Positions 31,606-49,645 of a stretch of DNA of 64,000 bases are shown here, piece after piece. Position numbers and translations under genes: made by a program. Below the pieces are notes generated by a model. The model did not search any database and was not told where the DNA came from. It was given only the letters and a program-made list of their open reading frames with translations. Numbering within the stretch: position 1 is the first letter of the stretch; each line of letters begins with the position of its first letter. This DNA comes from Myxococcales bacterium (GTDB lineage: Bacteria; Myxococcota; Myxococcia; Myxococcales; Anaeromyxobacteraceae), in the NCBI GenBank assembly GCA_021806645.1, contig JAJZQX010000011.1:62001-126000 (forward strand), read 5' to 3'.

Positions 31606-31637
31606 TCGTCGGCAAAAATCCGGTAAAATTGCCACCG

Positions 31638-32792
31638 ATGTTCCGCCGCCGACTCCAGCCGCCGACCCGCTCCTTCTTCCTCCTCGGTCCCCGCGCCACC
31701 GGGAAGACCACCTGGCTGCGCCAGCACTTCGGGAAGGCTCGCTGGTTCAACCTGCTCCAGGAGAAGGAGTGGTCCCGGCTGCTGCGGGAGCCCGGTCTCT
31801 TCCGCCAGGAGGTCGAAGCGCTTCCGGCCGGAACCTGGGTCGTGGTGGACGAGGTGCAGCGCCTCCCGGGGCTCCTCAACGAGGTCCATGACCTGCTCTC
31901 CCACGACGCGAAGCGAGTCCGCTTCGCGCTGACCGGCTCGAGCGCCCGGAAGCTCCGCTCCCGCGACGTGAACCTGCTGGCGGGGCGAGCTGCGAGCCGA
32001 CGCTTCTTTCCGCTGGTGGGCGCGGAGCTGCCGGGCGGCACGCAGGTGGACGACCTCCTGAGGTTCGGCGGCCTACCGGCGGTTCGCAGCGAGCCCCAGG
32101 TCCGTGGACGGGTCGAGCTGCTGGAGGCCTACCGGGACACCTACCTGGCGGAGGAGATCCGCAACGAGGGGCTGGTCAGGAGCCTGGACGGCTTCTCCCG
32201 CTTCCTGGAGGTGGCCGCGTTGCTCAACGGGCAGGTGCTCAACGTGACCGGCGTCGCTCGGGACGCCGGCGTCTCACGCACCACGGTGCAGGGGTTCTTC
32301 GAGGTCCTCGGCGACACCATGCTCGGCAGCCTGCTGCCGGCCTGGCGACCTCGGGCGCGGGTCAAGGAGGTGGCCAACCCGAAATTCTACCTCTTCGACA
32401 CCGGCGTGGCCCGGACGCTCTCGGGCCGGCTGCGCGACCCCCTCCACGCCACGGAGCGAGGCCCGCTCCTCGAGGCCTGGGTTCTCCATGAGGTGCGGGC
32501 ACACCTCCACGATCACGATGTCGGCGGAGAGCTGGCCTACTGGCGCCTCCCATCGGGCCTCGAGGTGGATCTCGTCTGGCAGCGAGGGGATCGCCGGGTT
32601 GGCATCGAGGTGAAGGGCTCGGAGCGCTGGCGGACCGAGGACGGCGCCGGGCTACGGGCGCTCGACGAGGCGGTCGGGCTCGACCGGTGCCTGGTGGTCT
32701 ACCTCGGCGACCGGCGGCTGAAGGACAAGGAGATCGAGGTGCTGCCGTTCTGGGAGTTCGTAGGAGAGCTGGGGAGGCTGTTTCCGGCGTGA
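31638..32792 (+). CDS. AAA+ ATPase with DUF4143 domain
   Basis: 384 residues. Walker A GPRATGKTTWL and Walker B WVVVDEVQRLP belong to an AAA_14 module, followed by a sensor-like FALTGSSARKLR. The C-terminal DUF4143 part has the winged helix GVARDAGVSRTTVQGFFEVL and a PD-(D/E)XK-like core with VDLVWQRG and GIEVKGS. Such ATPases are common in accessory DNA, and their function is unsettled. I chose the ATG at 31638; a TTG at 31629 is possible. AT-rich sequence (GTATAC and TAAAAT near 31600-31630) just before the gene may be its promoter. Confidence 0.88.
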   Translation: MFRRRLQPPTRSFFLLGPRATGKTTWLRQHFGKARWFNLLQEKEWSRLLREPGLFRQEVEALPAGTWVVVDEVQRLPGLLNEVHDLLSHDAKRVRFALTGSSARKLRSRDVNLLAGRAASRRFFPLVGAELPGGTQVDDLLRFGGLPAVRSEPQVRGRVELLEAYRDTYLAEEIRNEGLVRSLDGFSRFLEVAALLNGQVLNVTGVARDAGVSRTTVQGFFEVLGDTMLGSLLPAWRPRARVKEVANPKFYLFDTGVARTLSGRLRDPLHATERGPLLEAWVLHEVRAHLHDHDVGGELAYWRLPSGLEVDLVWQRGDRRVGIEVKGSERWRTEDGAGLRALDEAVGLDRCLVVYLGDRRLKDKEIEVLPFWEFVGELGRLFPA

Positions 32793-37677: not shown

Positions 37678-37922
37678 CTACGGCGCCACCGGCAGCCCGA
37701 GGGCCTCGGCGTTGCGGCGGATCCGGTCGTCGCAGCTGACGACGGTGAGCCGGCTCAAGTGTCCCCGCGCTCGGCGTCCAGCAGACCGGCGGCGCTCCCG
37801 GGAGCAAGCCGCACGCTGGGCGCCGGGGGCCAGGCCCGCGCCTCGGCCCGAGCCCCAGGCACGAGGCGGCCCGCCTCGACCAGCCGGCGGTACCGGAGTT
37901 CGTCAGCAGCGGTCTCCTTCAC
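37678..37922 (-). pseudogene. Frameshifted PIN-like partner of the Fic gene
   Basis: A GTG at 37922 overlaps the Fic stop (GTGA) and opens a frame of 55 residues that ends ...GLLDAERGDT-stop near 37755. A shift of one base continues with LSRLTVVSCDDRIRRNAEALGLPVAP and a TAG at 37678-37680. The second part is like the C-terminal end of PIN-type ribonucleases, where 'TVVSxDDRIRxNAxALGxxVxP' follows the last strand. The two halves fit one protein of about 81 residues with one base lost or gained. The upstream half of a PIN domain is missing, so even the repaired gene is short. Confidence 0.55.
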
Positions 37923-39109
37923 CGCTCCGGGAAGAGGCCCGGGAACCAACGCCCGGCCAGCGCAGCCGGGAAGGTCAGCCGCAGCGGGGCGCGGCTGCTC
38001 TCGGAGTTGAGCACCCCGGCCTCCTGCAGCGCCGCGACGATGCGCCGGCCCTGCCGGTCCGAGTGTCCGAGCACGCCAGCGACCTCGCCGCGAGGCAGCT
38101 CGCCCCGGTAGACCACGGCCTGCAGCAGGTCGCCGGACTTCGCCGGCAGGTTGCCTAGTCGGATCTCCTCTTCAGACCAGGTCCGGATGCGTGCCAGCAG
38201 CCGGTCCGGCTGGACCAGCGACTCCATGAACCGGACCTGGTCGAGGCAGGTCTCGAGGAACCAGGCGGTGAAGGTCGCCAACGCCTCCTCGCTCATCGAG
38301 CCTCGGCCGTCGAGGTCGCCGCGGCGGGGCTGGTCGCATTCGGCCAGGTGGCGCCGGTAGTCGCCGACGTTGCGGGCGAGCCCCCGGGCGATCGACCAGA
38401 CGCCGCCGGTGTCGAGCGCATCGACCAGCAGCGCGTGCGACATGAGGCGCGCCACGCGCCCGTTGCCGTCGAGGAACGGGTGGATCCAGAGCAGGCGGTG
38501 GTGCGCAGCGGCCGCCGCCAGGATGGCGTCGGTCCGGCCCAGGCCGGCATAGGCGGCCCCGAAGTGCTCCAGGAAGCGGGGCACGGCGCCCGGGCTGATG
38601 GCCACGTGACCACCCACCTTGACGTCGCTGCCCCGAAGCTCGCCCGGCTCCACGCGAAGCTTCGCCCCGGTGTCGGGGTTCTCGGCCCAGCAGAGCTCGG
38701 CGGGCAGGTGCAGGTAGAAGCGGCGGTGCAGCTCGCGCAGGCCCCCGGGCGTGGCCGCCGAGCCCTTCAGCCCACCGGCGTCGATCCAGCGCTGCACCTC
38801 GACGTGGGCCCGGGCCTCCAGCTGGAGCTCCCGCTGGCGCCGGTCCTTGCTGAGATCGGAGCGGATGGCCCGCTCGATGTCGATGGGGTGGGTGTCGTGC
38901 CCTTCGATGAGGTTGCTGTAGTAGCAGTTCATGGCCCGCACCAGCTCCGCGAGAGAGGCCAGGACCAGCGGGGGCAGGCTGCGACGGAAGCCGGACGCCT
39001 GGGCGGCGAGGTCGAGGGCGAGGTCGTTGAGGCGGGGCCGGTGGCGCGAGCCTTCCGGCAGGCGCATCGGTTCCATCATGGCTGGCGACTCGCCCCGGTC
39101 CAGCTTCAT
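37919..39109 (-). CDS. Fic-family AMPylation protein with internal inhibitory helix
   Basis: 396 residues. Fic proteins transfer AMP (or another phosphate moiety) to target side chains. The active site is HPFLDGNGRVAR (210-221, catalytic His210). An inhibitory helix near the N terminus carries Ser65-x-x-x-Glu69-Gly70 (YYSNLIEGH), so this is the self-inhibited class with the helix N-terminal to the Fic core. The last 100 residues form a winged helix (LLQAVVYRGELPRGEVAGVLG) of the type seen in Fic proteins that regulate their own genes. The stop is shared with the PIN-like partner's start. Confidence 0.92.
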   Translation of the reverse strand: MKLDRGESPAMMEPMRLPEGSRHRPRLNDLALDLAAQASGFRRSLPPLVLASLAELVRAMNCYYSNLIEGHDTHPIDIERAIRSDLSKDRRQRELQLEARAHVEVQRWIDAGGLKGSAATPGGLRELHRRFYLHLPAELCWAENPDTGAKLRVEPGELRGSDVKVGGHVAISPGAVPRFLEHFGAAYAGLGRTDAILAAAAAHHRLLWIHPFLDGNGRVARLMSHALLVDALDTGGVWSIARGLARNVGDYRRHLAECDQPRRGDLDGRGSMSEEALATFTAWFLETCLDQVRFMESLVQPDRLLARIRTWSEEEIRLGNLPAKSGDLLQAVVYRGELPRGEVAGVLGHSDRQGRRIVAALQEAGVLNSESSRAPLRLTFPAALAGRWFPGLFPER

Positions 39110-39816: not shown

Positions 39817-40803
39817 TCAGGCCTGGGGCTCGTCGGAGTAGAGCTCCAGCAGCGCCTTCGCCTGCTTCTCCAGGAGCTCCACCGCCTCCTTCGGCCCCGC
39901 GATGGTCGCCTCGCCGCCGTACCCGAGCACCTGCCCGACCAGGTAGTTCCCCGGAGTCACCATGGACTTCACGCTGACCGAGCCCTCCGGCCCGGCCTCG
40001 GCCCGCCCGGCCGCACGCGCCTTCGCCAGCGCCGCCGACAGGCCGGTGAACCGGAGCGTCACCTCGACCTCGGCGCCCGACTCGAAGTAGAGCCCCTTCC
40101 TGAGATACCGCGCCACCGGAGGCCCCTGGTGCGCCCCGAACAGGCGCGTGCCCAGTTCCACCGAGACCACCCGGTCGAGCCGGTAGAGGTGCTCCGCCCT
40201 CTTCTCCACGTTCCAGGCCGCCAGGTACCAGAGGCCGTCGCGCTGGAAGAGGAGCCGCGGCTCGACGACGCGCCTCGTGATCTCGGCGTCGGCGACGGCC
40301 CGGTACTCGAGCGTGGTCTCCAGCCGCTGCGCGATGGCCTGCTGCAGCGACGGCGCCCACGGCTCGGGCGGCTTCCCGCCGAGGTCGAGCCCCTTCGCCA
40401 GCCGATCGGCCTCGCCACGCAGGACCTCGGGCACCGCCCTGCGGAGCTTGCGGATCGCCTCCTTGACGGGCTTGCTGCCGTCCTTCTCGAACGGGGCCAG
40501 GGCCGCCAGCAAGACCGCCCCCTCGGCCAGCGAGAATGCGGGGGGCGTCCCGAAGTGGTGAGCGTAGGTGACCTGCACCTCGCCGTCCTCGACGTAGAGG
40601 TCGATGGCCTCCTCGGCGCCGCTCGGATCCACCCAGAGGTCCTGCACCGAGGCGATGTCGTCGCGGAGCTGGGCCTCGCTCCGGGCGCCGCAGGCCTCCG
40701 CGGCCCTGGCGAGCGGCAGGCCGCGCCCGCTCCGCGCCGCGCGCGCGACCACCGGGATGAGGAGGAGGAGCCGGCGGAGCCGCTGCACGGAGAGGTCGCT
40801 CAC
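39817..40803 (-). CDS. WYL-domain regulator, second of a pair
   Basis: 328 residues from a GTG overlapping the upstream stop. A short helical DNA-binding N-terminal part (QRLRRLLLLIPVV, LPLARAAEACG) is followed by the WYL domain. Its motif appears as LFQRDGLWYLAAWNVEKRAEHLYRLDRV. A WCX-like C-terminal domain ends with YGGEATIAGPKEAVELL. WYL proteins sense nucleic acid or nucleotide ligands and control defence and DNA-damage genes (PafC-like partner). Confidence 0.88.
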   Translation of the reverse strand: MSDLSVQRLRRLLLLIPVVARAARSGRGLPLARAAEACGARSEAQLRDDIASVQDLWVDPSGAEEAIDLYVEDGEVQVTYAHHFGTPPAFSLAEGAVLLAALAPFEKDGSKPVKEAIRKLRRAVPEVLRGEADRLAKGLDLGGKPPEPWAPSLQQAIAQRLETTLEYRAVADAEITRRVVEPRLLFQRDGLWYLAAWNVEKRAEHLYRLDRVVSVELGTRLFGAHQGPPVARYLRKGLYFESGAEVEVTLRFTGLSAALAKARAAGRAEAGPEGSVSVKSMVTPGNYLVGQVLGYGGEATIAGPKEAVELLEKQAKALLELYSDEPQA

Positions 40804-41843
40804 GGCGTCCGCCCCGCTTCCGTCCCGACGATGCCCTCGAGGATCTCACGCGCCATGGCGCGTCCCTCGGCCGGCTCGACCAGCTCGGCCTCGAGCCCCC
40901 AGGCGAGCGCCTGCCGGACCAGGCCGCGCAGGTTGCGGACCTCGAGCCGCGCCAGGCGAGCGCCGCCCGGCTCGGTCGAGAGCGCGGCCTCGGGCAGGAG
41001 CTGCTTCGCCACCCGCGCCAGCGAGCCGCGGAAGCGAACGGCGGCCTGCACCGGCGCGTGGACGTCGTAGTCCCAGGCCTGCTGCCTCGACCAGCGCCGG
41101 ATGTCGAAGCCGGCGGGGAGCTCGTAGTCGGGGTCCTGTGCCCTGACGCCGTTCATCTTCAGCGAGCGGCAGCGCGAGAGGTAGAAGATGCGGACCCCCT
41201 TCCGCAGGTGGCAGAAGCCGACCAGGATCCACTCGCCCCGCCGCAGGGCCCAGCCGTAGACGTCCACCTGGCGAGGGGCCACCTCGCCCGTGCTGGCGCG
41301 CCAGTAGTCGATCGTGACGGTCTTGCGGCGCGTCCAGGCGTCGATGAGCTTGTCGAGCAGCTTCTGCTGCGCGGAGGCGTCCACGCCGCCGTCGGCCGTG
41401 AGCTCCTCCATCGGCGCGGCGCGGGGAGGCATCCCCTTGCTGCCCACGATGAGCTTGCGGAGCGCGTTCTCCAGCTCGTCGCGCAGCGGATGGTCCGAGA
41501 GGCGCAGCGCGCCGGTGCCGGCGGCCCAGACCAGCGCCGCCTCGTCGGGCGTGAACTCCACCGGCGGGAGCGTGCTGGAGCGGGCGTCGAGCACGTAGCC
41601 GATCGCCTCCCCCCGGCCGCCCAGTTCCACGGTCTCGAGCGCGAAGCCGAGGTCCCGGAGGAGCGCCTTGTCGCGGCCGAACTTCTTCTCCCTGGCGGCC
41701 GGGTCGCCGGCGTACTCCTCGGGGAACGCGGCGTAGATGCGCTCGCGGCTGGCCGGCTCGTCCTGGGTGAGGAGCCACTGGGCCAGGCGCAGGCAGCGGA
41801 CCGCGCCGGTGTCGTTCTTGGGCCTGGCGCGGGGAGCGGGCAT
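40800..41843 (-). CDS. WYL-domain regulator, first of a pair
   Basis: About 347 residues from the ATG at 41843. The N terminus is a winged helix (LRLAQWLLTQDEPASRERIYAAFP) with a YAGDPAAREKKFGRDKALL segment, typical of PafB/DeoR-like WYL regulators. The WYL domain core is VDVYGWALRRGEWILVGFCHLRKGVRIFYLSRC. It is translationally coupled to the second WYL gene (GTGA), so the two probably act as a heterodimer. Their targets may be in this accessory island. Frames upstream of 41843 stay open but lack homology. Confidence 0.88.
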   Translation of the reverse strand: MPAPRARPKNDTGAVRCLRLAQWLLTQDEPASRERIYAAFPEEYAGDPAAREKKFGRDKALLRDLGFALETVELGGRGEAIGYVLDARSSTLPPVEFTPDEAALVWAAGTGALRLSDHPLRDELENALRKLIVGSKGMPPRAAPMEELTADGGVDASAQQKLLDKLIDAWTRRKTVTIDYWRASTGEVAPRQVDVYGWALRRGEWILVGFCHLRKGVRIFYLSRCRSLKMNGVRAQDPDYELPAGFDIRRWSRQQAWDYDVHAPVQAAVRFRGSLARVAKQLLPEAALSTEPGGARLARLEVRNLRGLVRQALAWGLEAELVEPAEGRAMAREILEGIVGTEAGRTP

Positions 41844-42126
41844 GAGCGGAGGGGAGTCTACCGCGACAGGCGTACCGAGAGATGAGGCGAGTGAGAAGTG
41901 CCCCAGGAGTCCGGGCCCCGTTGTAGAACCGAAGGTATGCACGAGGTCTGGCCGGCCCTGTTCGTCGCGGAGCGCGCTTCGTGGTCGCCCTGGAGGACGG
42001 TCGAGTCCTGGGCACCGCCGAAGGCACCGTTCCCGCGGCCATCGAGTTCGCTGGCCCACTCGCACATGGCGAGCACCTGCGCCTCGTCCGGGATGAGGCC
42101 AGGCTCGCCTCGCCGACCAGCGCGCT
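41844..42126. other. Spacer with a possible gene fragment
   Basis: About 280 bases between the WYL pair and the ATPase, both on the minus strand. On the plus strand, 41981-42110 encodes VALEDGRVLGTAEGTVPAAIEF and GEHLRLVRDEARL in an open frame without family match. It may be a remnant. A promoter for the WYL pair should lie here, but no clear consensus was seen. Confidence 0.3.
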
Positions 42127-43605
42127 TCAGTACGCCAGCAAGAAGTCCCGAAGCGGCACGACCAGCAGCCGATCATCGTCCAGCCCGGACGTGTCCCGGG
42201 TCACGAGCAGGCCGCGCCGGCACTTGAACTGCTCCATGAAGCGGCGGAGCGCCGCGAAGTCGGCGTCGTCGATGCGGTGCCGGAACTTCACCTCGACAGG
42301 AAGGACCGCCCCGTCGGTTCGCTCGGCCACGAAGTCGACTTCCTGGAACGGCGAGCGACGGTCTGCCGGGTTGAGCCGCTCCCGGTAGAAGTGGGCCGCG
42401 AGGTCGGCGTCCCGGATCACCGACTGGACGACGGTCTCGACGAGCGGGCCGACCACGTCCGGCGCCGACTCCCACAGCGACGGAGCGCCGCGGAAGATGG
42501 CGTTGCGGACCCCGAGGTCGGTGAGCGTGGTCTTGACCGGGACGCGGGCCGTCTTGGCCTTGGCGAGCGGGAAGCGGCGGAACTCGCGGATGAGGAGGGC
42601 GTCCGCCAGGTAGTGGAGGTAGCGCCCGACGGTTGGCTGGTTGGTGCGCAGGCCGGCGGCGTTGGCCTCGGCGGCCAGCTCGAGCTGGCTCACCTCCTGT
42701 CCCGTTCGCCGCGCTACAGAGAGGTACAGGTGCCGGAGGAGCTGAGGTTGCTGGATGGGGAAGAGATCCGGGATGTCGACGCCGAGGACCCGGTCGAACA
42801 CCGTCTCGATGAGGTAGTCGGCCCAACCGTCCTCCGCGACCTCACCCGAGTGGAGCCGCGGATAGCCGCCCCGGTTGTAGTAGCGGTCGAGGGCCTGCGC
42901 GAGCGCCGGGGCATGCATCTCTCCGAATGCGTGGAGTTCCCTGAAGACGTCTCGCGCCTCGGTCTCGAAGGTCTTGAGGAAGCGGAGGGGCGCGGTGGGC
43001 GGTGCGAGCTCGGGGTGCCACGCCTCAACGACCTCGCGGAACGAAAACGGAGGGAACTCGGTGGTCACGACCCGGCCTGCAAGGCTCTCCCGCGTGCCCT
43101 TGGCGACGAGGACACTGGAGGATCCCGTCACCACCATCCGAGCACGGGTCGTCTCGGCGAGATGCTTCACTTCCTCGTTCCACCGCGGCAGCTTGTGGAC
43201 CTCGTCGAGGAGGAGGAAGGCGGGCTCGCCGCTGTTGAGGTCTCGCTGGCGGACGTTGGCCTCGAACCACCGGACGAGGCCGAGCAAGCCGCCCGCCTCT
43301 CGCAGCGTCTGGAGGTCGAAGCGGAGCACCAGGACGTCCGTGGGCCTCACGCCGTCGGCGAGGAGCGCCTCCACGAGCTGGAGCGTGGAGGTGGTCTTGC
43401 CGACCTGGCGAGGGCCTCGGATCACCTGGATGAGCGGGGACTTCTGACGAAGCCGCTCCGAGAGCAGTCGTGTCTGGCGGCGCCGGAAGGCTGGCACGGC
43501 AGGCCGGACCAGATGCGGTGGGCTCCACCAGGTGTTCAACCCACGCAGGAGGGCGGGGAGTTCTGGCGGGACGAGGGCAAGCTGGCCGGCTGGGCGATCG
43601 ACCAT
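42127..43605 (-). CDS. AAA+ ATPase with DUF4143 domain
   Basis: About 492 residues. Walker A IRGPRQVGKTTSTLQL and Walker B AFLLLDEVHKLPRW; sensor MVVTGSSSVLV. The C-terminal DUF4143 portion contains GGYPRLHSG, a winged-helix stretch (AGLRTNQPTVGRYLHYLADALLI) and FQEVDFVAERTDGAVLPVEVKFR, a PD-(D/E)XK-like core. The second member of this family in the window (the other at 31638) is only distantly similar. The start is the ATG at 43605, just inside a palindromic, AT-rich block. Confidence 0.88.
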   Translation of the reverse strand: MVDRPAGQLALVPPELPALLRGLNTWWSPPHLVRPAVPAFRRRQTRLLSERLRQKSPLIQVIRGPRQVGKTTSTLQLVEALLADGVRPTDVLVLRFDLQTLREAGGLLGLVRWFEANVRQRDLNSGEPAFLLLDEVHKLPRWNEEVKHLAETTRARMVVTGSSSVLVAKGTRESLAGRVVTTEFPPFSFREVVEAWHPELAPPTAPLRFLKTFETEARDVFRELHAFGEMHAPALAQALDRYYNRGGYPRLHSGEVAEDGWADYLIETVFDRVLGVDIPDLFPIQQPQLLRHLYLSVARRTGQEVSQLELAAEANAAGLRTNQPTVGRYLHYLADALLIREFRRFPLAKAKTARVPVKTTLTDLGVRNAIFRGAPSLWESAPDVVGPLVETVVQSVIRDADLAAHFYRERLNPADRRSPFQEVDFVAERTDGAVLPVEVKFRHRIDDADFAALRRFMEQFKCRRGLLVTRDTSGLDDDRLLVVPLRDFLLAY

Positions 43606-43616
43606 GGTGCACAAGC

Positions 43617-43949: not shown

Positions 43950-44074
43950 GGGGACTTCAAGCAGATCGGTGCTCTGGCCCGGGTCACGGACAGTGGGTGG
44001 AGCAGCGTGTTCGCCGTGATAGCTTCCCCCACGCCCTTCACTCCTGCGCCCCCGGGCCTCCCGCCGACCGCTCC

Positions 44075-45292
44075 ATGCCCAAAGCCTTGCCCCACAAGTG
44101 GCAGTTCAAGGCCAGGTTCCGGCGCCACGCCTTCGGGTGGCGCTCGCAGCCGGCCATGCAGCGGCTGAGGGAGGCGCTCACCGAGATCCGCAAGGCCGCC
44201 CGCCAGTCCCTGGTGATCGGCGCCGAGGGTGGGGTTGTGCTCATCGAGCGCCTCTCTCCGGCCATCGAGCAGGTGGACAGCTCCTCGGGCGCCATCGGCT
44301 CCGCCGTGTACGTGGCCCTCGAGGAGCTGGCGGGGCTCATCTCAGACGCTCCGGCCCCGCCGGCGGTGCGCGAGGCCTGGATCGAGCGGCTCTGGCAGGC
44401 CTTCAATGACGACGAGATCCCCTACCTCGAGAGCCTCGGCGAACACTGGGGCGCCATCTGCGGCTCGCGGGAGCGCGCCTCGGCGTGGGCCGACGAGCAC
44501 CTGTGGGTCACCTCCCAGGCGCTGGGCCCCGACCCGAGCATGCGCGGCTACTACAAGGGCGCGACCGCTTGCCTGAGCTGCCTGCACCGGGCCGAGCGGT
44601 TCGAGGAACTCCTGGCCCTGGTCGAGCGCGAGCCGACCGCCTTGTGGCACTACCGGGAGTGGGGCGTGCGCGCGCTCGTCGGCCTCGGCCGGAAGGACGA
44701 CGCAATCCGGTTCGCCGAGGCGAGCCGCGGCAAGTGGACCAACGACCTCGCCGTGGACAAGGCGTGCGAGGAGATCCTGCTCTCCTCCGGGCTGGCGGAC
44801 GAGGCGTACCGGCGCTACGGCGTCCGCGCGGGCCGTGGAGGCACCTTCCTCGCCACCTATCGAGCGCTGGCGAAGCGATACCCGCACAAGGCACCCGCCG
44901 AGCTGCTCGCTGACCTGGTGGCCACCACGCCCGGCCAGGAGGGGAAGTGGTTCGCCGCGGCGAAGGACGCGGGGCTCCTCGACGAGGCGCTGGCTCTCGC
45001 GAGCCGGACGCCGACCGACCCGAAGACGCTGACGCGGGCCGCCCGCGACCATGTCGAGGAGGAGCCCGAGTTTGCGCTCGGCGCCGGCATGGCCGCGCTG
45101 CGCTGGCTCGCCGAGGGATACGGCTACGAGATCACCGGCGCCGATGTCTGGTCGGCGTTCGCGAACACCATGAACGCAGCGCGAGTCCTGGGCCGCGAGC
45201 AGGCGGCGCGCGGTGAGATCCGGGCGCTGGTGGAGAGCGACCGGACCGGGTTCCTGGCGAAGGTGCTCGGGCGAGAGCTGGGGAGCGGTTGA
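44075..45292 (+). CDS. Hypothetical helical repeat protein
   Basis: 405 residues from the ATG at 44075 (frame open to 43997). The N-terminal LPHKWQFKARFRRHAFGWRSQPA is basic; the rest is helical with repeat-like Ala/Leu patterns (ACLSCLHRAERFEELLALV, WGVRALVGLGRKDDAIRFAE). HKWQFKARFRR and GYGYEITGADVW are striking conserved-looking blocks. I have no family name for it; it looks like a TPR-type scaffold. It lies directly upstream of the large helicase fusion on the same strand, about 100 bases from its start. Confidence 0.65.
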   Translation: MPKALPHKWQFKARFRRHAFGWRSQPAMQRLREALTEIRKAARQSLVIGAEGGVVLIERLSPAIEQVDSSSGAIGSAVYVALEELAGLISDAPAPPAVREAWIERLWQAFNDDEIPYLESLGEHWGAICGSRERASAWADEHLWVTSQALGPDPSMRGYYKGATACLSCLHRAERFEELLALVEREPTALWHYREWGVRALVGLGRKDDAIRFAEASRGKWTNDLAVDKACEEILLSSGLADEAYRRYGVRAGRGGTFLATYRALAKRYPHKAPAELLADLVATTPGQEGKWFAAAKDAGLLDEALALASRTPTDPKTLTRAARDHVEEEPEFALGAGMAALRWLAEGYGYEITGADVWSAFANTMNAARVLGREQAARGEIRALVESDRTGFLAKVLGRELGSG

Positions 45293-45391
45293 AGGAGCGA
45301 CCAGGCGGACGCCGCGATGGCCTCCTCCCAGCCGAACCAGGGGGATTGTGCGTCTTGGGATGTCCCTCCCGGTGCTACGCTCCCCTCGCTG

Positions 45392-48300
45392 ATGTCCTCC
45401 CCCTTTCTCTCCATGCCCGAGACCGCGTGGGTCGGCTCCAATGCCCTCGCCTTCGCGATCCGCGACAGCTTCCCGGTCACTCCAGGCCACACACTGGTCA
45501 TCCCGCGCCGCGAGATGCCGACCTGGTTCGACGCGACCCGCGAGGAGCAACTCGCGATCCTCGACCTCGTCGGCGAGGTGAAGCGCCAGCTCGACGCCGA
45601 GCTGCACCCGCACGGCTACAACGTCGGGTTCAACGCGGGCGAGGCGGCTGGCCAGACGGTGATGCACCTGCACGTCCACGTCATCCCCCGGTACGAGGGG
45701 GACATGGACGACCCGCGAGGCGGCGTCCGGCACGTCATCCCGTGGAAGGGGAACTACAAGCGCACGCTGGCGGCGCCGCTCGCGACGGGCGGCCTGGCCG
45801 ACCCGTTCCTCACCCACCTGCGGCCGCTCTTCGCGGAGAGCCGCGAGGTGGCCATCGTGGCCGCCTTTGTCCAGGACAGCGGCCTGGCGCTCCTGCAGGA
45901 CCCGGTGCTGTCCGCGGTGGCCCGCGGCGCGCGCGTGAAGCTGGTCACGGGCGACTACCTGGACATCACCCAGGCCGAGGCGCTCCAGCGGCTACTCGAC
46001 TGGCAGGGTGCACCGGCGCCGGAGGGCGAGGACGGGGCCTTCGAGGTCCGCATCGTCGAGACCGCGAAGCTGGCCGGACCGAGCCGCTCCTTCCATCCCA
46101 AGTCCTGGCGCTTCGAGGGGCCGGAGATGGGGGTCGCCTGGGTCGGCAGCTCCAATGTCTCCGCGTCGGCGCTTCGCTCCGGTGTGGAGTGGAACCTGCG
46201 GGTGGATCGTTGGCGCGACCCCGATGCGGTCGACCGGGTTCGGGCGGCCTTCCAGGCGCTCTGGGCGAGCGCCTCGCCGCTCACGCAGGCCTGGGTGGCG
46301 GCCTACGCCCAGCGAGCCCGTCAGCAGGTCGCGCGGCTGCCGCCGGGCGAGGCGGAGCCAGAGCCGCTCACGCCGGCGCCGAAGCCGCACCCGGTCCAGC
46401 TCGAGGCGCTCGATGCCCTGCAGCTGGCCCGGGCGGAGGGCAAGCGCCGGGCCCTGGTGGTCATGGCCACGGGCCTCGGCAAGACGCTGCTCGCCGCGCT
46501 CGACGCCGCGGCCTACGGCCGGGAGCTCGGCCACCCCACGCGCGTGCTCTTCCTGGCCCACCGCAAGGAGCTGCTGACGCAGGCCGCGACGACGCTCCGG
46601 CTGGTGTTGCGGGAGGGGCGGCCGAGCCTTCAGATCGGCTGGTACGCCGAAGGGCGCGCCGAGCTGGACGCCGACGTGGTGGTGGCGTCGATCCAGACCA
46701 TCGCGCGGCCGGAGCACCTCGACCGCCTGGCCGGCCAGGCCTTCGACTACGTGGTGGTGGACGAAGCGCACCACGCCGAGGCGGCCACCTACCGGCGAAT
46801 CCTCTCGCGCATCACGCCGGGCTTCCTGCTCGGCCTCACGGCCACGCCGGACCGCGCCGACGAGGGGGACATCGTCGGCCTCTTCGACGACCACGTGGCC
46901 TTCCGAGCCGACCTGGGCGTCGGCATCCAGGTCGGCCGCCTGGTGCCGTTCGCCTACTTCGGCCTGAAGGACACGGTCGACTACTCGTTCGAGAACATCC
47001 CGTGGCGGAACCGCCGCTTCGACCCGGCGGCCCTCGAGCGGGCGGTCCAGACCCAGCGGCGCATGGAGGCGCTCTGGGCAGCATGGCAGGAGCACCCAGG
47101 GACGAGGTCGCTCGTCTTCTGCTGCTCCATCGCGCACGCCGCCTTCGTCCAGCGCTGGCTCGCCGAGAAGGGGCTCCGCACCCGGCTGGTCCACTCCGGT
47201 CCGGGCTCGGACGACCGGAGCGCCGCGCTCAGCGATCTGGAGGCCGGTCACATCGACGCGGTCTGCGCGGTGGACCTCTTCAATGAAGGAGTGGATGTCC
47301 CGCTCATCGACAGGGTGGTGATGCTCCGCCCGACGGAGTCGCCGATTCTGTTCCTCCAGCAGCTGGGGCGCGGGCTGCGCACGGCCGAGGGCAAGGCGCA
47401 GCTCACGGTCATCGACTTCGTCGGCAACCACCGCGTCTTCCTGGACCGAGTGCGGACGCTGCTGTCGCTGGGTGGGCGCGGCACCGCGCTCCGGGAGCTC
47501 GTGGATGGCGCCGGCTCGCTCGAGCTGCCCAGCGGTTGCTCAGTGGAGATCGAGCTCGGGGCCATCGAGCTGCTCCGCTCGCTCCTGCCCCGGGGCGGCA
47601 GCGAGGTGGAGCGCGTCTACCGTGAGCTGTACGCCGCCCGGGGCGAGCGCCCGCGCATCGGCGAGCTGCTCCGGATGAACCTGTCGCCGAGCACACTCCG
47701 AGCGGCGCACGGGAGCTGGCTCGACTTCGTCGCTGGGGAGGGGCATCTGACCGCCGACGAGGTCAAGGTCCTCGCCGCGGCAGGGCGCTGGTTCTCGGAG
47801 CTCGAGACGTCGCCGATGACCAAGTGCTTCAAGATGGTCGTCCTGGAGGCGCTCATCGAGCAGGACGCGCTGCGCTCCGGCGTCACGCTGGAGCAACTCG
47901 CCGCGAAGTCCCACGAGATCCTCGCGCGCTCGCCGGAGCTGTTACAGGACCTGGAGGCCGTGAAGGAGCTGCCGGAGCCGAAGGCGCCGGACGCGAGGAC
48001 CTGGCAGGCCTACTGGCGGAAGAACCCGGTGGCGGCCTGGGCGGGGACGCCCGAGAAGCCGGGCGACTGGTTCCGGGTCGAGGGGGAGCGCTTCCAGCCC
48101 CGGCTGCCGATCCCAGACGGCCTGGACGAGGTCTTCGAGGAGCTGACGCTCGAGCTGGTGGACTACCGCCTGGCCATGTACCGGCGCCGGCTGGACCAGG
48201 CGGCGACGTCCGGCGCCTTCACCTGCAAGGTCTTCTCCAACAACAAGGGGCCGGTGCTCAAGCTGCCCGACCGGACCCGCCGGCCCGACCTGCCGTTGGG

Positions 48301-49645
48301 TGACGTGGACGTGCGCCTGCCGGACGGCTCCGTCTGGCGTTTCCGGTTCGTGTCCATCGCCTGCAACGTGGCGCATCCGGTCGGCAGCGACCGGAACCAG
48401 CTCGCTGACCTTCTCCGCCGCTGGTTTGGCCCGACGGCGGGTCGCCCCGGAACCGCCTTTCACGTCCGGTTCACGCCCTCGCCGGACGGCCTGTGGGTCG
48501 AGCCGCTGGGCCAGGTGATCGAGCTGCCACCCCGCGGCGCCGTCACGGCGTTCCCGTCCCTCCGGGCCGCCGCCGGCCGCGTCCTGGGAGAGGTGGCTGG
48601 GGCGCCCGAGCCCGAGCAGGTCTTGTTGCCGGTGAAGACTCGTGCCCCCGACATCTTCGCGGTGCGCGCGGCCGGCGACTCCATGGACGGCGGCGCGGAC
48701 CCCATTCGCGACGGCGACTGGTTGATCTTCAAGTACGCACGCGGCGCCGGCCTGGGCGCGGTGGAGGGGCGGGTTGCGCTGGTGGAGACCGAGGGCCAGC
48801 ACGGTGACGCCGGCTACCAGGTGAAGCGGGTGGTTCGGGAGGGTGGCCGCTGGTTCCTCGCGTCGGACCGCGCGGGTGCCGAGCGCTTCGAGGCCTCGGA
48901 ACAGACGCGGGTGGTGGCGCTCCTCGTCGAGCGGCTCCGCCCCGAGGCCCTGGCGCCCGAGGTCGGGGCAACCTTTGACGACGACGGGCTCGCCAAGGCC
49001 TTTGGCCTTGGCCAGCCGCCGGTGGACGGCCGGGTGGGTGGGCACCTGTTCCTGCTCGTCGAGAAGCGCGGGGAGCTGGTCGCGCCGGACCGCGTGAAGC
49101 GGCGCGTCGCCGACCGGCGGCCGGGCGAGACGGCCTACGTGCTTACCCGGGAGGGCCCGGAGGTGGCGTGGCGGTACGGCGGGGTAGGGCGGTGGAGCGA
49201 AGCCGCAGGGGCGTGGGTGCTGCCCGAGGTAGACTTCGCCACGTGGAGGGCGTTGGGGAAGGGCCGGAGCGCGTCACGTAGGCTGGCCCCGGTCTTCGAA
49301 ACCCGGGCCTCGGACCTGGTCGACCGGGTCCTGGCCACCGTGGCGGAGGGCGGCTGGGTCGAGTTCGGAGGGAAGCGCTGCCGAGTCGTCGGAAAGGCCA
49401 AGAGCGGCGGGCTCCGCGTCGACGGTGGCCCCGGTGGTTTCGCCGAGCGGACCGTCTCCCTTACCGATTTTGCGTGGGCGCTTGCGGCGAGCCGTGACGT
49501 CGAAGAGCACGGGGGCGTGCTGGACGAGGCACGGGTAAACCGGCTGCGTTACCTGGAGGGAACGCCAAAGGAGTCCACGCGGTGGATTGATACCGGATGG
49601 GCTCTCGTGGCGGTTCGCGGACTCGGTGGCAGTTCTGGCGAATGA
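45392..49645 (+). CDS. HIT / PLD / SF2 helicase / S24 peptidase fusion
   Basis: 1,417 residues from the ATG at 45392 (the frame is open from 45317). Residues 1-110 form a HIT domain with MHLHVHVIPRY (His92, His94, His96). Residues 140-290 are a phospholipase D-like nuclease domain with one HxK motif (FHPKSWRF, His235/Lys237) and VGSSN. Residues 330-690 are a superfamily 2 helicase: ATGLGKT (Lys364), DEAH (457-460), LTATPDR and QQLGRGLR. Residues 690-1050 resemble the DUF3427-type extension. Residues 1080-1190 match a LexA/S24 peptidase with the nucleophile in AAGDSMDG (Ser1097) and a candidate Lys1145. The last 240 residues are unassigned. A nucleic-acid defence role is inferred. Confidence 0.85.
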   Translation: MSSPFLSMPETAWVGSNALAFAIRDSFPVTPGHTLVIPRREMPTWFDATREEQLAILDLVGEVKRQLDAELHPHGYNVGFNAGEAAGQTVMHLHVHVIPRYEGDMDDPRGGVRHVIPWKGNYKRTLAAPLATGGLADPFLTHLRPLFAESREVAIVAAFVQDSGLALLQDPVLSAVARGARVKLVTGDYLDITQAEALQRLLDWQGAPAPEGEDGAFEVRIVETAKLAGPSRSFHPKSWRFEGPEMGVAWVGSSNVSASALRSGVEWNLRVDRWRDPDAVDRVRAAFQALWASASPLTQAWVAAYAQRARQQVARLPPGEAEPEPLTPAPKPHPVQLEALDALQLARAEGKRRALVVMATGLGKTLLAALDAAAYGRELGHPTRVLFLAHRKELLTQAATTLRLVLREGRPSLQIGWYAEGRAELDADVVVASIQTIARPEHLDRLAGQAFDYVVVDEAHHAEAATYRRILSRITPGFLLGLTATPDRADEGDIVGLFDDHVAFRADLGVGIQVGRLVPFAYFGLKDTVDYSFENIPWRNRRFDPAALERAVQTQRRMEALWAAWQEHPGTRSLVFCCSIAHAAFVQRWLAEKGLRTRLVHSGPGSDDRSAALSDLEAGHIDAVCAVDLFNEGVDVPLIDRVVMLRPTESPILFLQQLGRGLRTAEGKAQLTVIDFVGNHRVFLDRVRTLLSLGGRGTALRELVDGAGSLELPSGCSVEIELGAIELLRSLLPRGGSEVERVYRELYAARGERPRIGELLRMNLSPSTLRAAHGSWLDFVAGEGHLTADEVKVLAAAGRWFSELETSPMTKCFKMVVLEALIEQDALRSGVTLEQLAAKSHEILARSPELLQDLEAVKELPEPKAPDARTWQAYWRKNPVAAWAGTPEKPGDWFRVEGERFQPRLPIPDGLDEVFEELTLELVDYRLAMYRRRLDQAATSGAFTCKVFSNNKGPVLKLPDRTRRPDLPLGDVDVRLPDGSVWRFRFVSIACNVAHPVGSDRNQLADLLRRWFGPTAGRPGTAFHVRFTPSPDGLWVEPLGQVIELPPRGAVTAFPSLRAAAGRVLGEVAGAPEPEQVLLPVKTRAPDIFAVRAAGDSMDGGADPIRDGDWLIFKYARGAGLGAVEGRVALVETEGQHGDAGYQVKRVVREGGRWFLASDRAGAERFEASEQTRVVALLVERLRPEALAPEVGATFDDDGLAKAFGLGQPPVDGRVGGHLFLLVEKRGELVAPDRVKRRVADRRPGETAYVLTREGPEVAWRYGGVGRWSEAAGAWVLPEVDFATWRALGKGRSASRRLAPVFETRASDLVDRVLATVAEGGWVEFGGKRCRVVGKAKSGGLRVDGGPGGFAERTVSLTDFAWALAASRDVEEHGGVLDEARVNRLRYLEGTPKESTRWIDTGWALVAVRGLGGSSGE

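Follow-up and report, generated by a model that had tools for sequence, protein, structure and literature searches.

How might a restriction enzyme, which must spare its own host when DNA is damaged, carry the means of its own restraint? The question is raised by a protein of 1,417 residues encoded in a 64,000-nucleotide stretch of DNA (the window) from a member of the Anaeromyxobacteraceae (Myxococcales bacterium, assembly GCA_021806645.1, contig JAJZQX010000011.1), in which a nuclease-helicase core is joined to a peptidase domain of the kind found in LexA. We propose, at a probability of roughly 0.45, that it is a SauUSI-type single-chain restriction nuclease with a built-in, RecA-triggered, self-cleaving LexA-type switch that turns the enzyme off, its target reader being cut away by its own protease when the protein meets a RecA filament.

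Domain architecture and the SauUSI-type core

The open reading frame (ORF) at 45392-49645 is a real gene (Table 1). It is stop-free throughout, the GC content at its three codon positions (0.75/0.50/0.91) follows the pattern of a gene, and homologues cover the full length of the protein. We prefer the ATG at 45392 over that at 45317 as the start, because the ORF of one relative (L068; L-numbers denote relatives or related loci, and G-numbers genomes) begins at the equivalent residue and several other relatives begin 3 residues earlier. The genome carries one copy only.

SauUSI comprises a phospholipase D-type (PLD) nuclease, a superfamily 2 (SF2) ATPase, a helical coupler, and a target-recognition domain (TRD) of SRA fold, in that order; its PLD domains dimerise, and binding of the TRD to its target stimulates the ATPase, which leads to translocation and shredding of DNA (PMC7913695). 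Residues 154-682 of the window protein match SauUSI of Staphylococcus aureus (PDB 7clg) at 4.4e-78, and PADLOC matches the protein to mREase_IV, a Type IV restriction family, at 7.7e-85. The Pfam PLDc_2 match (residues 170-291, 4e-5) contains H235, K237, and E242, which form the HxK(x4)E motif of the SauUSI PLD domain (PMC7913695). Fused to it is an SF2 ATPase (ResIII, residues 331-488, 6e-33; Helicase_C, 561-664, 3.5e-12) with intact GLGKT (K364), DEAHH (457-461), TATP, and QQLGRGLR motifs. SauUSI is a modification-dependent (Type IV) restriction enzyme. Judged by this homology, the window protein has a PLD-SF2 core of SauUSI type, and we predict that it works as a Type IV-like enzyme of the same kind to which a LexA-type switch has been added. 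In both proteins PLD, SF2, and coupler follow one another in a single chain, with the TRD (putative in the window protein) towards the C-terminus. Additional to the SauUSI plan are an N-terminal HIT domain, two domains inserted between coupler and TRD (the unnamed domain X, then S24), and a separate C-terminal domain; the putative TRD is also too divergent for the DUF3427 model of Pfam. We regard the domain anatomy and the family membership as well supported.

An earlier interpretation made from the sequence alone (the sequence-only reading) had described a single-chain HIT, PLD, SF2 helicase, and S24 protein. Pfam found all four of these domains, and its His235 (in FHPK), Lys364, and Ser1097 are correctly placed. 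It had also put a DUF3427-like extension immediately behind the helicase, where we find the coupler and domain X instead; a putative divergent DUF3427-like TRD lies behind S24. The approximately 240 C-terminal residues that it left unassigned comprise this putative TRD and the C-terminal domain.

The S24 module

In the whole protein, Pfam places Peptidase_S24 at residues 1081-1161 (1.2e-4), with 22.2 bits against a cut-off of 23.3; the same stretch reached 27.4 bits in the genome search, above the curated cut-off. Relatives score 37-42 bits, which together with the agreement of profile and fold searches rules out a chance match. A profile of 23 S24 segments gave 26 matches in the PDB, every one of them LexA, UmuD, or CI, and the top 33 Foldseek matches of an AlphaFold model of residues 925-1417 (mean pLDDT 82) were LexA or lambda CI. 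Profile and model alike thus identify a genuine S24 fold of LexA/CI/UmuD type.

In the best alignment to a PDB chain, made by HMMER, RAAAG falls on the RVAAG cleavage site of LexA, and S1097 and K1145 fall on the catalytic Ser and Lys. The sequence-only reading had called this a LexA-type Ser-Lys module, which holds at the level of both sequence and fold, with an intact dyad; the putative cleavage site had escaped it. Among aligned relatives, the P1 residue is only ever Ala (35) or Cys (4), and P1' is Gly in 38 of 39. Self-cleaving LexA/CI and UmuD are cut after these same two residues. G1062 lies 35 residues ahead of Ser1097, and the corresponding Gly-to-Ser spacing is 34 in LexA and 35 in UmuD. 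Within the clade of the window protein, neither the S1097/K1145 dyad nor the Ala-Gly bond varies, and the catalytic Lys is present in every complete Ala-Gly member of that clade. We consider this strong evidence for the prediction that S24 is a working self-cleaving module in this clade.

The unit formed by domain X, S24, TRD, and C-terminal domain is portable. At L112:3831-7205 (genome G463) its fusion partners are not HIT-PLD-helicase but a protein kinase and a nucleoside-phosphorylase domain (PNP_UDP_1). The S24 domain of L112 is the sole aligned row without the P1' Gly, and its Ser and Lys are lost as well; this joint loss is as expected if the three residues act together.

With LexA, lambda CI, and UmuD, the window S24 shares the fold, the Ser-Lys dyad, and an Ala-Gly bond (Cys-Gly in some relatives) about 35 residues before the Ser. 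It differs from them in having no helix-turn-helix, for which a Pfam scan of the 1,417 residues gave no match, and in being embedded in a large nuclease-helicase. The other S24 match in the genome is far stronger (119 bits) and is presumably its ordinary LexA. A search of viral contigs with the S24 profile found no relatives there.

The target-recognition and C-terminal domains

Pfam gives no DUF3427 match in residues ~1180-1290. A 23-row profile of this region, compared with DUF3427 TRDs by hhalign, aligned end to end with a probability of 77.5 and an E of 1.9e-5, and controls with domain X and the C-terminal domain gave E 0.5-0.8. The initial profile comparison was weak (E 0.005) and became convincing only after the bridging relatives L151 and L152 were added. 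We therefore assign residues ~1180-1290 to a divergent SRA-like TRD with moderate confidence. The corresponding position in two relatives is held by a recognisable DUF3427: L089 has S24 (8e-10) followed by a DUF3427 TRD (2.8e-26), and L152, which belongs to a different family of the phylum, carries HIT-PLD-SF2-coupler-X-S24-DUF3427 in a single chain. Since S24 sits between the motor and the DUF3427 TRD in both, self-cleavage would part the shredding engine from the target reader.

Domain X and the C-terminal domain of ~130 residues are new. Neither has a Pfam match, and the C-terminal domain has no significant fold match. Among 195 Myxococcota genomes, 33 have a match to domain X and 28 a match to the TRD profile. 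Short variants of ~1,265-1,300 residues, in some genomes that are probably of Myxococcaceae, end without the C-terminal domain. Three long variants of ~1,600 residues (L071, L113, and L114) carry ~160 extra C-terminal residues of unrecognised type.

The HIT domain and the position ahead of PLD

Pfam matches HIT at residues 13-102 (8e-23), and the PDB matches of this part are HIT and Ap4A phosphorylase chains. The H-phi-H-phi-H-phi-phi active site is present (HLHVHVI at 92-98) and conserved in the clade. The slot before PLD varies among relatives; in the window clade it holds a fused HIT. A Hymenobacter cluster (L018:6004-11146) has separate HIT and NUDIX (MutT-like) genes beside its PLD-helicase gene, the stand-alone HIT being 49% identical to that of the window protein. 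A NUDIX (MutT-like) gene also overlaps a SauUSI-type PLD-helicase gene at L013:13556-17225, so that NUDIX neighbours occur in two phyla.

A class-I methyltransferase gene adjoins the PLD-helicase gene in all gammaproteobacterial members. TehB/Methyltransf_25-like genes of this class directly adjoin it at L015, L116, L117, L115, L016, L011, and L095, and at the last of these, in Polaromonas (L095:4374-6131), the methyltransferase is fused to the PLD-helicase N-terminus, the slot held by HIT in the window protein. SprT-like metalloprotease genes (L149:9018-9545 and L150:9042-9584) overlap the start of HIT-PLD-helicase-X-DUF3427 genes. Several proteins of this slot act on nucleotides or small molecules, from which we infer that the slot may help a modification-dependent nuclease with self-protection or the clearing of nucleotides.

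Family and genomic context

The proteins with HIT and S24, including that of the window, form one clade with 100/100 support, apart from standard SauUSI-type proteins. HIT-PLD-helicase-DUF3427 proteins (L149, L150, and L080, and, with a degenerate HIT, L014 and L017) have the same N-terminal order, and the first three also have domain X; they differ in lacking S24, a DUF3427 TRD replacing the S24-TRD-C end. Gammaproteobacterial PLD-helicase-S24 proteins (L015, L116, L117, and L115) resemble the window protein in that S24 follows the coupler directly, but have no HIT, an adjacent class-I methyltransferase gene, and no conserved dyad Lys. The TRD is kept in this group only in L115/L089.

The distribution is patchy, and the turnover is that of an accessory, not a housekeeping, gene, because presence is patchy (the gene is absent from all three same-genus genomes examined), one genome (G011) holds two copies 24 kb apart, and disrupted copies occur. 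The last include an insertion of a DDE transposase in the S24 part (L079:6635-12286), an internal deletion (L082), and frameshifts (L083).

A known defence gene stands beside the family gene at at least 12 related loci. The neighbours include ZacC (L066), DpdE (L067, with cluster members L069, L070, L074, and L012), McrB/McrC (L008), DUF2357-PDDEXK_7 (L010 and L084, with cluster member L076), and a second SauUSI-type gene (L006). The Myxococcaceae loci have a constant pair of M16 peptidase genes on one side and variable genes on the other, a pattern like that of an integration hotspot. The sequence-only reading had suspected a defence nuclease-helicase, and the Type IV homology, the patchy distribution, and these neighbours bear this out; we found neither a housekeeping gene in conserved context nor a segment without the S24 fold, the two outcomes that would have spoken against it.

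At L065:8174-18842, the family gene and an HmaC-like gene share a few bases, with HmaB following, an arrangement that looks as if the family gene had replaced the helicase HmaA of the Hma defence system. No methyltransferase family match was obtained among the nearby window genes scanned; with an HmaB-like methyltransferase at L065, such absence is not uniform in the clade.

Upstream of the gene, the window contains Fic, two WYL regulators, a DUF4143 ATPase, and a HipA-like gene, and downstream are metabolic genes, larB/larC-like by Pfam. A second DUF4143/PDC-S01-type ATPase gene lies at 31629-32792 (+). The window Fic (37919-39109, -) is 54% identical to a Fic gene of a Neotabrizicola plasmid (L017) that has a degenerate-HIT PLD-helicase-DUF3427 gene immediately downstream. 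The helical protein encoded upstream (43997-45292), which had been put forward as a partner (from ~44075), was rejected as a candidate; neither Pfam nor PADLOC matched it, and none of the related loci carries a homologue.

Table 1. Coordinates of the gene, its domains and residues, and two neighbouring features in the window
Feature	Position	Strand	Basis or remark
Single ORF, 1,417 residues	45392..49645	+	HIT-PLD-SF2-coupler-X-S24-TRD-C
HIT domain, residues 1-125, triad HLHVHV at 92-97	45392..45766	+	Pfam, PDB matches
PLD nuclease domain, ~130-300, H235-x-K237-x4-E242	45779..46291	+	Pfam PLDc_2, SauUSI match
SF2 helicase/translocase, ~331-690	46382..47461	+	ResIII, Helicase_C
Helical coupler, ~690-925, at SauUSI coupler position	47459..48166	+	Co-linear with SauUSI order and relatives
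Domain X, ~925-1048, beta-rich, unnamed	48164..48535	+	Conserved in 16 relatives
S24 (LexA/CI/UmuD-type) domain, ~1050-1180	48539..48931	+	Pfam, profile, and fold searches
Predicted self-cleavage bond A1061-G1062 in FPSLRAAAG	48572..48577	+	HMMER alignment to LexA RVAAG
Catalytic Ser1097 (GDSMDGG)	48680..48682	+	Ser in 42/42 aligned relatives
Catalytic Lys1145 (QVKRV)	48824..48826	+	Lys in 35/42 relatives
Divergent DUF3427/SRA-like TRD (putative), ~1180-1290	48929..49261	+	hhalign, position in L089/L152
C-terminal domain, ~1290-1417, strongly conserved	49259..49642	+	15-row alignment
Two WYL-domain regulator genes	39817..42176	-	Pfam/PADLOC
AAA_14-DUF4143 ATPase (PADLOC PDC-S01)	42127..43614	-	Pfam/PADLOC

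Discussion

We propose the following sequence of events. The C-terminal TRD would read a feature of DNA, probably a modified base on invading DNA, upon which the SF2 motor would translocate and the dimerised PLD domains would shred the DNA. The most likely next step is that RecA filaments formed on broken DNA would stimulate cleavage of A1061-G1062 by S1097/K1145. The recognition part (S24-TRD-C) would thereby come away from the nuclease and motor (HIT-PLD-SF2-coupler-X). As the ATPase of SauUSI depends on its TRD, this cut should disarm target-directed restriction, and would do so before damage reaches the host chromosome, so that restriction alleviation would be intrinsic to the enzyme. For HIT, the likeliest activity is hydrolysis of nucleotides or adenylates, which would serve self-protection or nucleotide clean-up.

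The same cut could also work in the opposite direction. If S24-TRD-C restrains the nuclease, RecA-stimulated cleavage would unleash a PLD-SF2 shredder, and the cell, infected or damaged, would die, as in abortive infection. Cleavage of UmuD-type S24 proteins activates them, and the defence-island context would suit such an enzyme. The PLD linker may repress the nuclease in BfiI/SauUSI, but the SauUSI ATPase needs binding of the TRD to its target (PMC7913695), so the freed fragment is expected to be less active. An enzyme unleashed by ordinary SOS induction would moreover be costly to the host. We judge activation by cleavage, which the sequence-only reading had suggested in response to DNA damage or phage, unlikely, and an off-switch the more likely of the two directions.

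Several observations weigh against the proposed switch. The TRD assignment comes from profile comparison only: Foldseek with a dedicated model of the C-terminal 250 residues yielded no significant match, and SauUSI had the top query TM-score in that list (0.27) but an E of 3.4. The Ser-Lys spacing of 48 is longer than the 37 of LexA. A LexA-box scan, using a canonical-style myxobacterial consensus, gave one chance-level match, not near the gene. The gammaproteobacterial sisters L015, L087, L088, and L089 keep Ser and Cys-Gly, and cleavage in this group is doubtful because the Lys is replaced or shifted. Three of the four gammaproteobacterial S24 proteins have no TRD behind S24, so S24 cannot act there by TRD shedding.

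These gammaproteobacterial proteins, in which a C-terminal S24 persists with neither TRD nor an aligned Lys, are what one might expect if S24 were no longer a protease switch and recruited the nuclease as a reader or docking module, for example by binding RecA filaments or by helping to recognise the target. LexA-type domains do bind RecA filaments, as PDB entries among our fold matches show. The invariance of dyad and Ala-Gly bond in the window's clade, and their joint loss in L112, argue against such a role, which we hold to be rather improbable for the window protein. Repair of blocked DNA ends, in which HIT would remove 5'-adenylates, PLD protein adducts, the helicase open the ends, and S24 provide the link to SOS, seems very unlikely: aprataxin and TDP1 do have HIT and PLD as their catalytic folds, L149 and L150 are each overlapped by an SprT-like protease gene, and the helicase part resembles RadD, but the closest characterised relative over PLD and helicase is a restriction enzyme, the single-HxK PLD is of SauUSI type, and patchy presence, disruption by an insertion sequence, and defence neighbours misfit a repair housekeeping gene.

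We found no description of an S24/LexA or HIT module in a SauUSI-type enzyme in the open-licence literature. Alleviation of Type I restriction by ClpXP relies on an outside protease (PMC12707154). If the off-switch proposed here is correct, a Type IV-like enzyme with its own LexA-type protease would be the intrinsic counterpart of that proteolytic alleviation. The SOS response would be linked to anti-phage immunity at the protein level, with restriction wired to the damage alarm in one polypeptide, and the switching of modification-dependent nucleases during SOS, whether off or on, would become directly testable.

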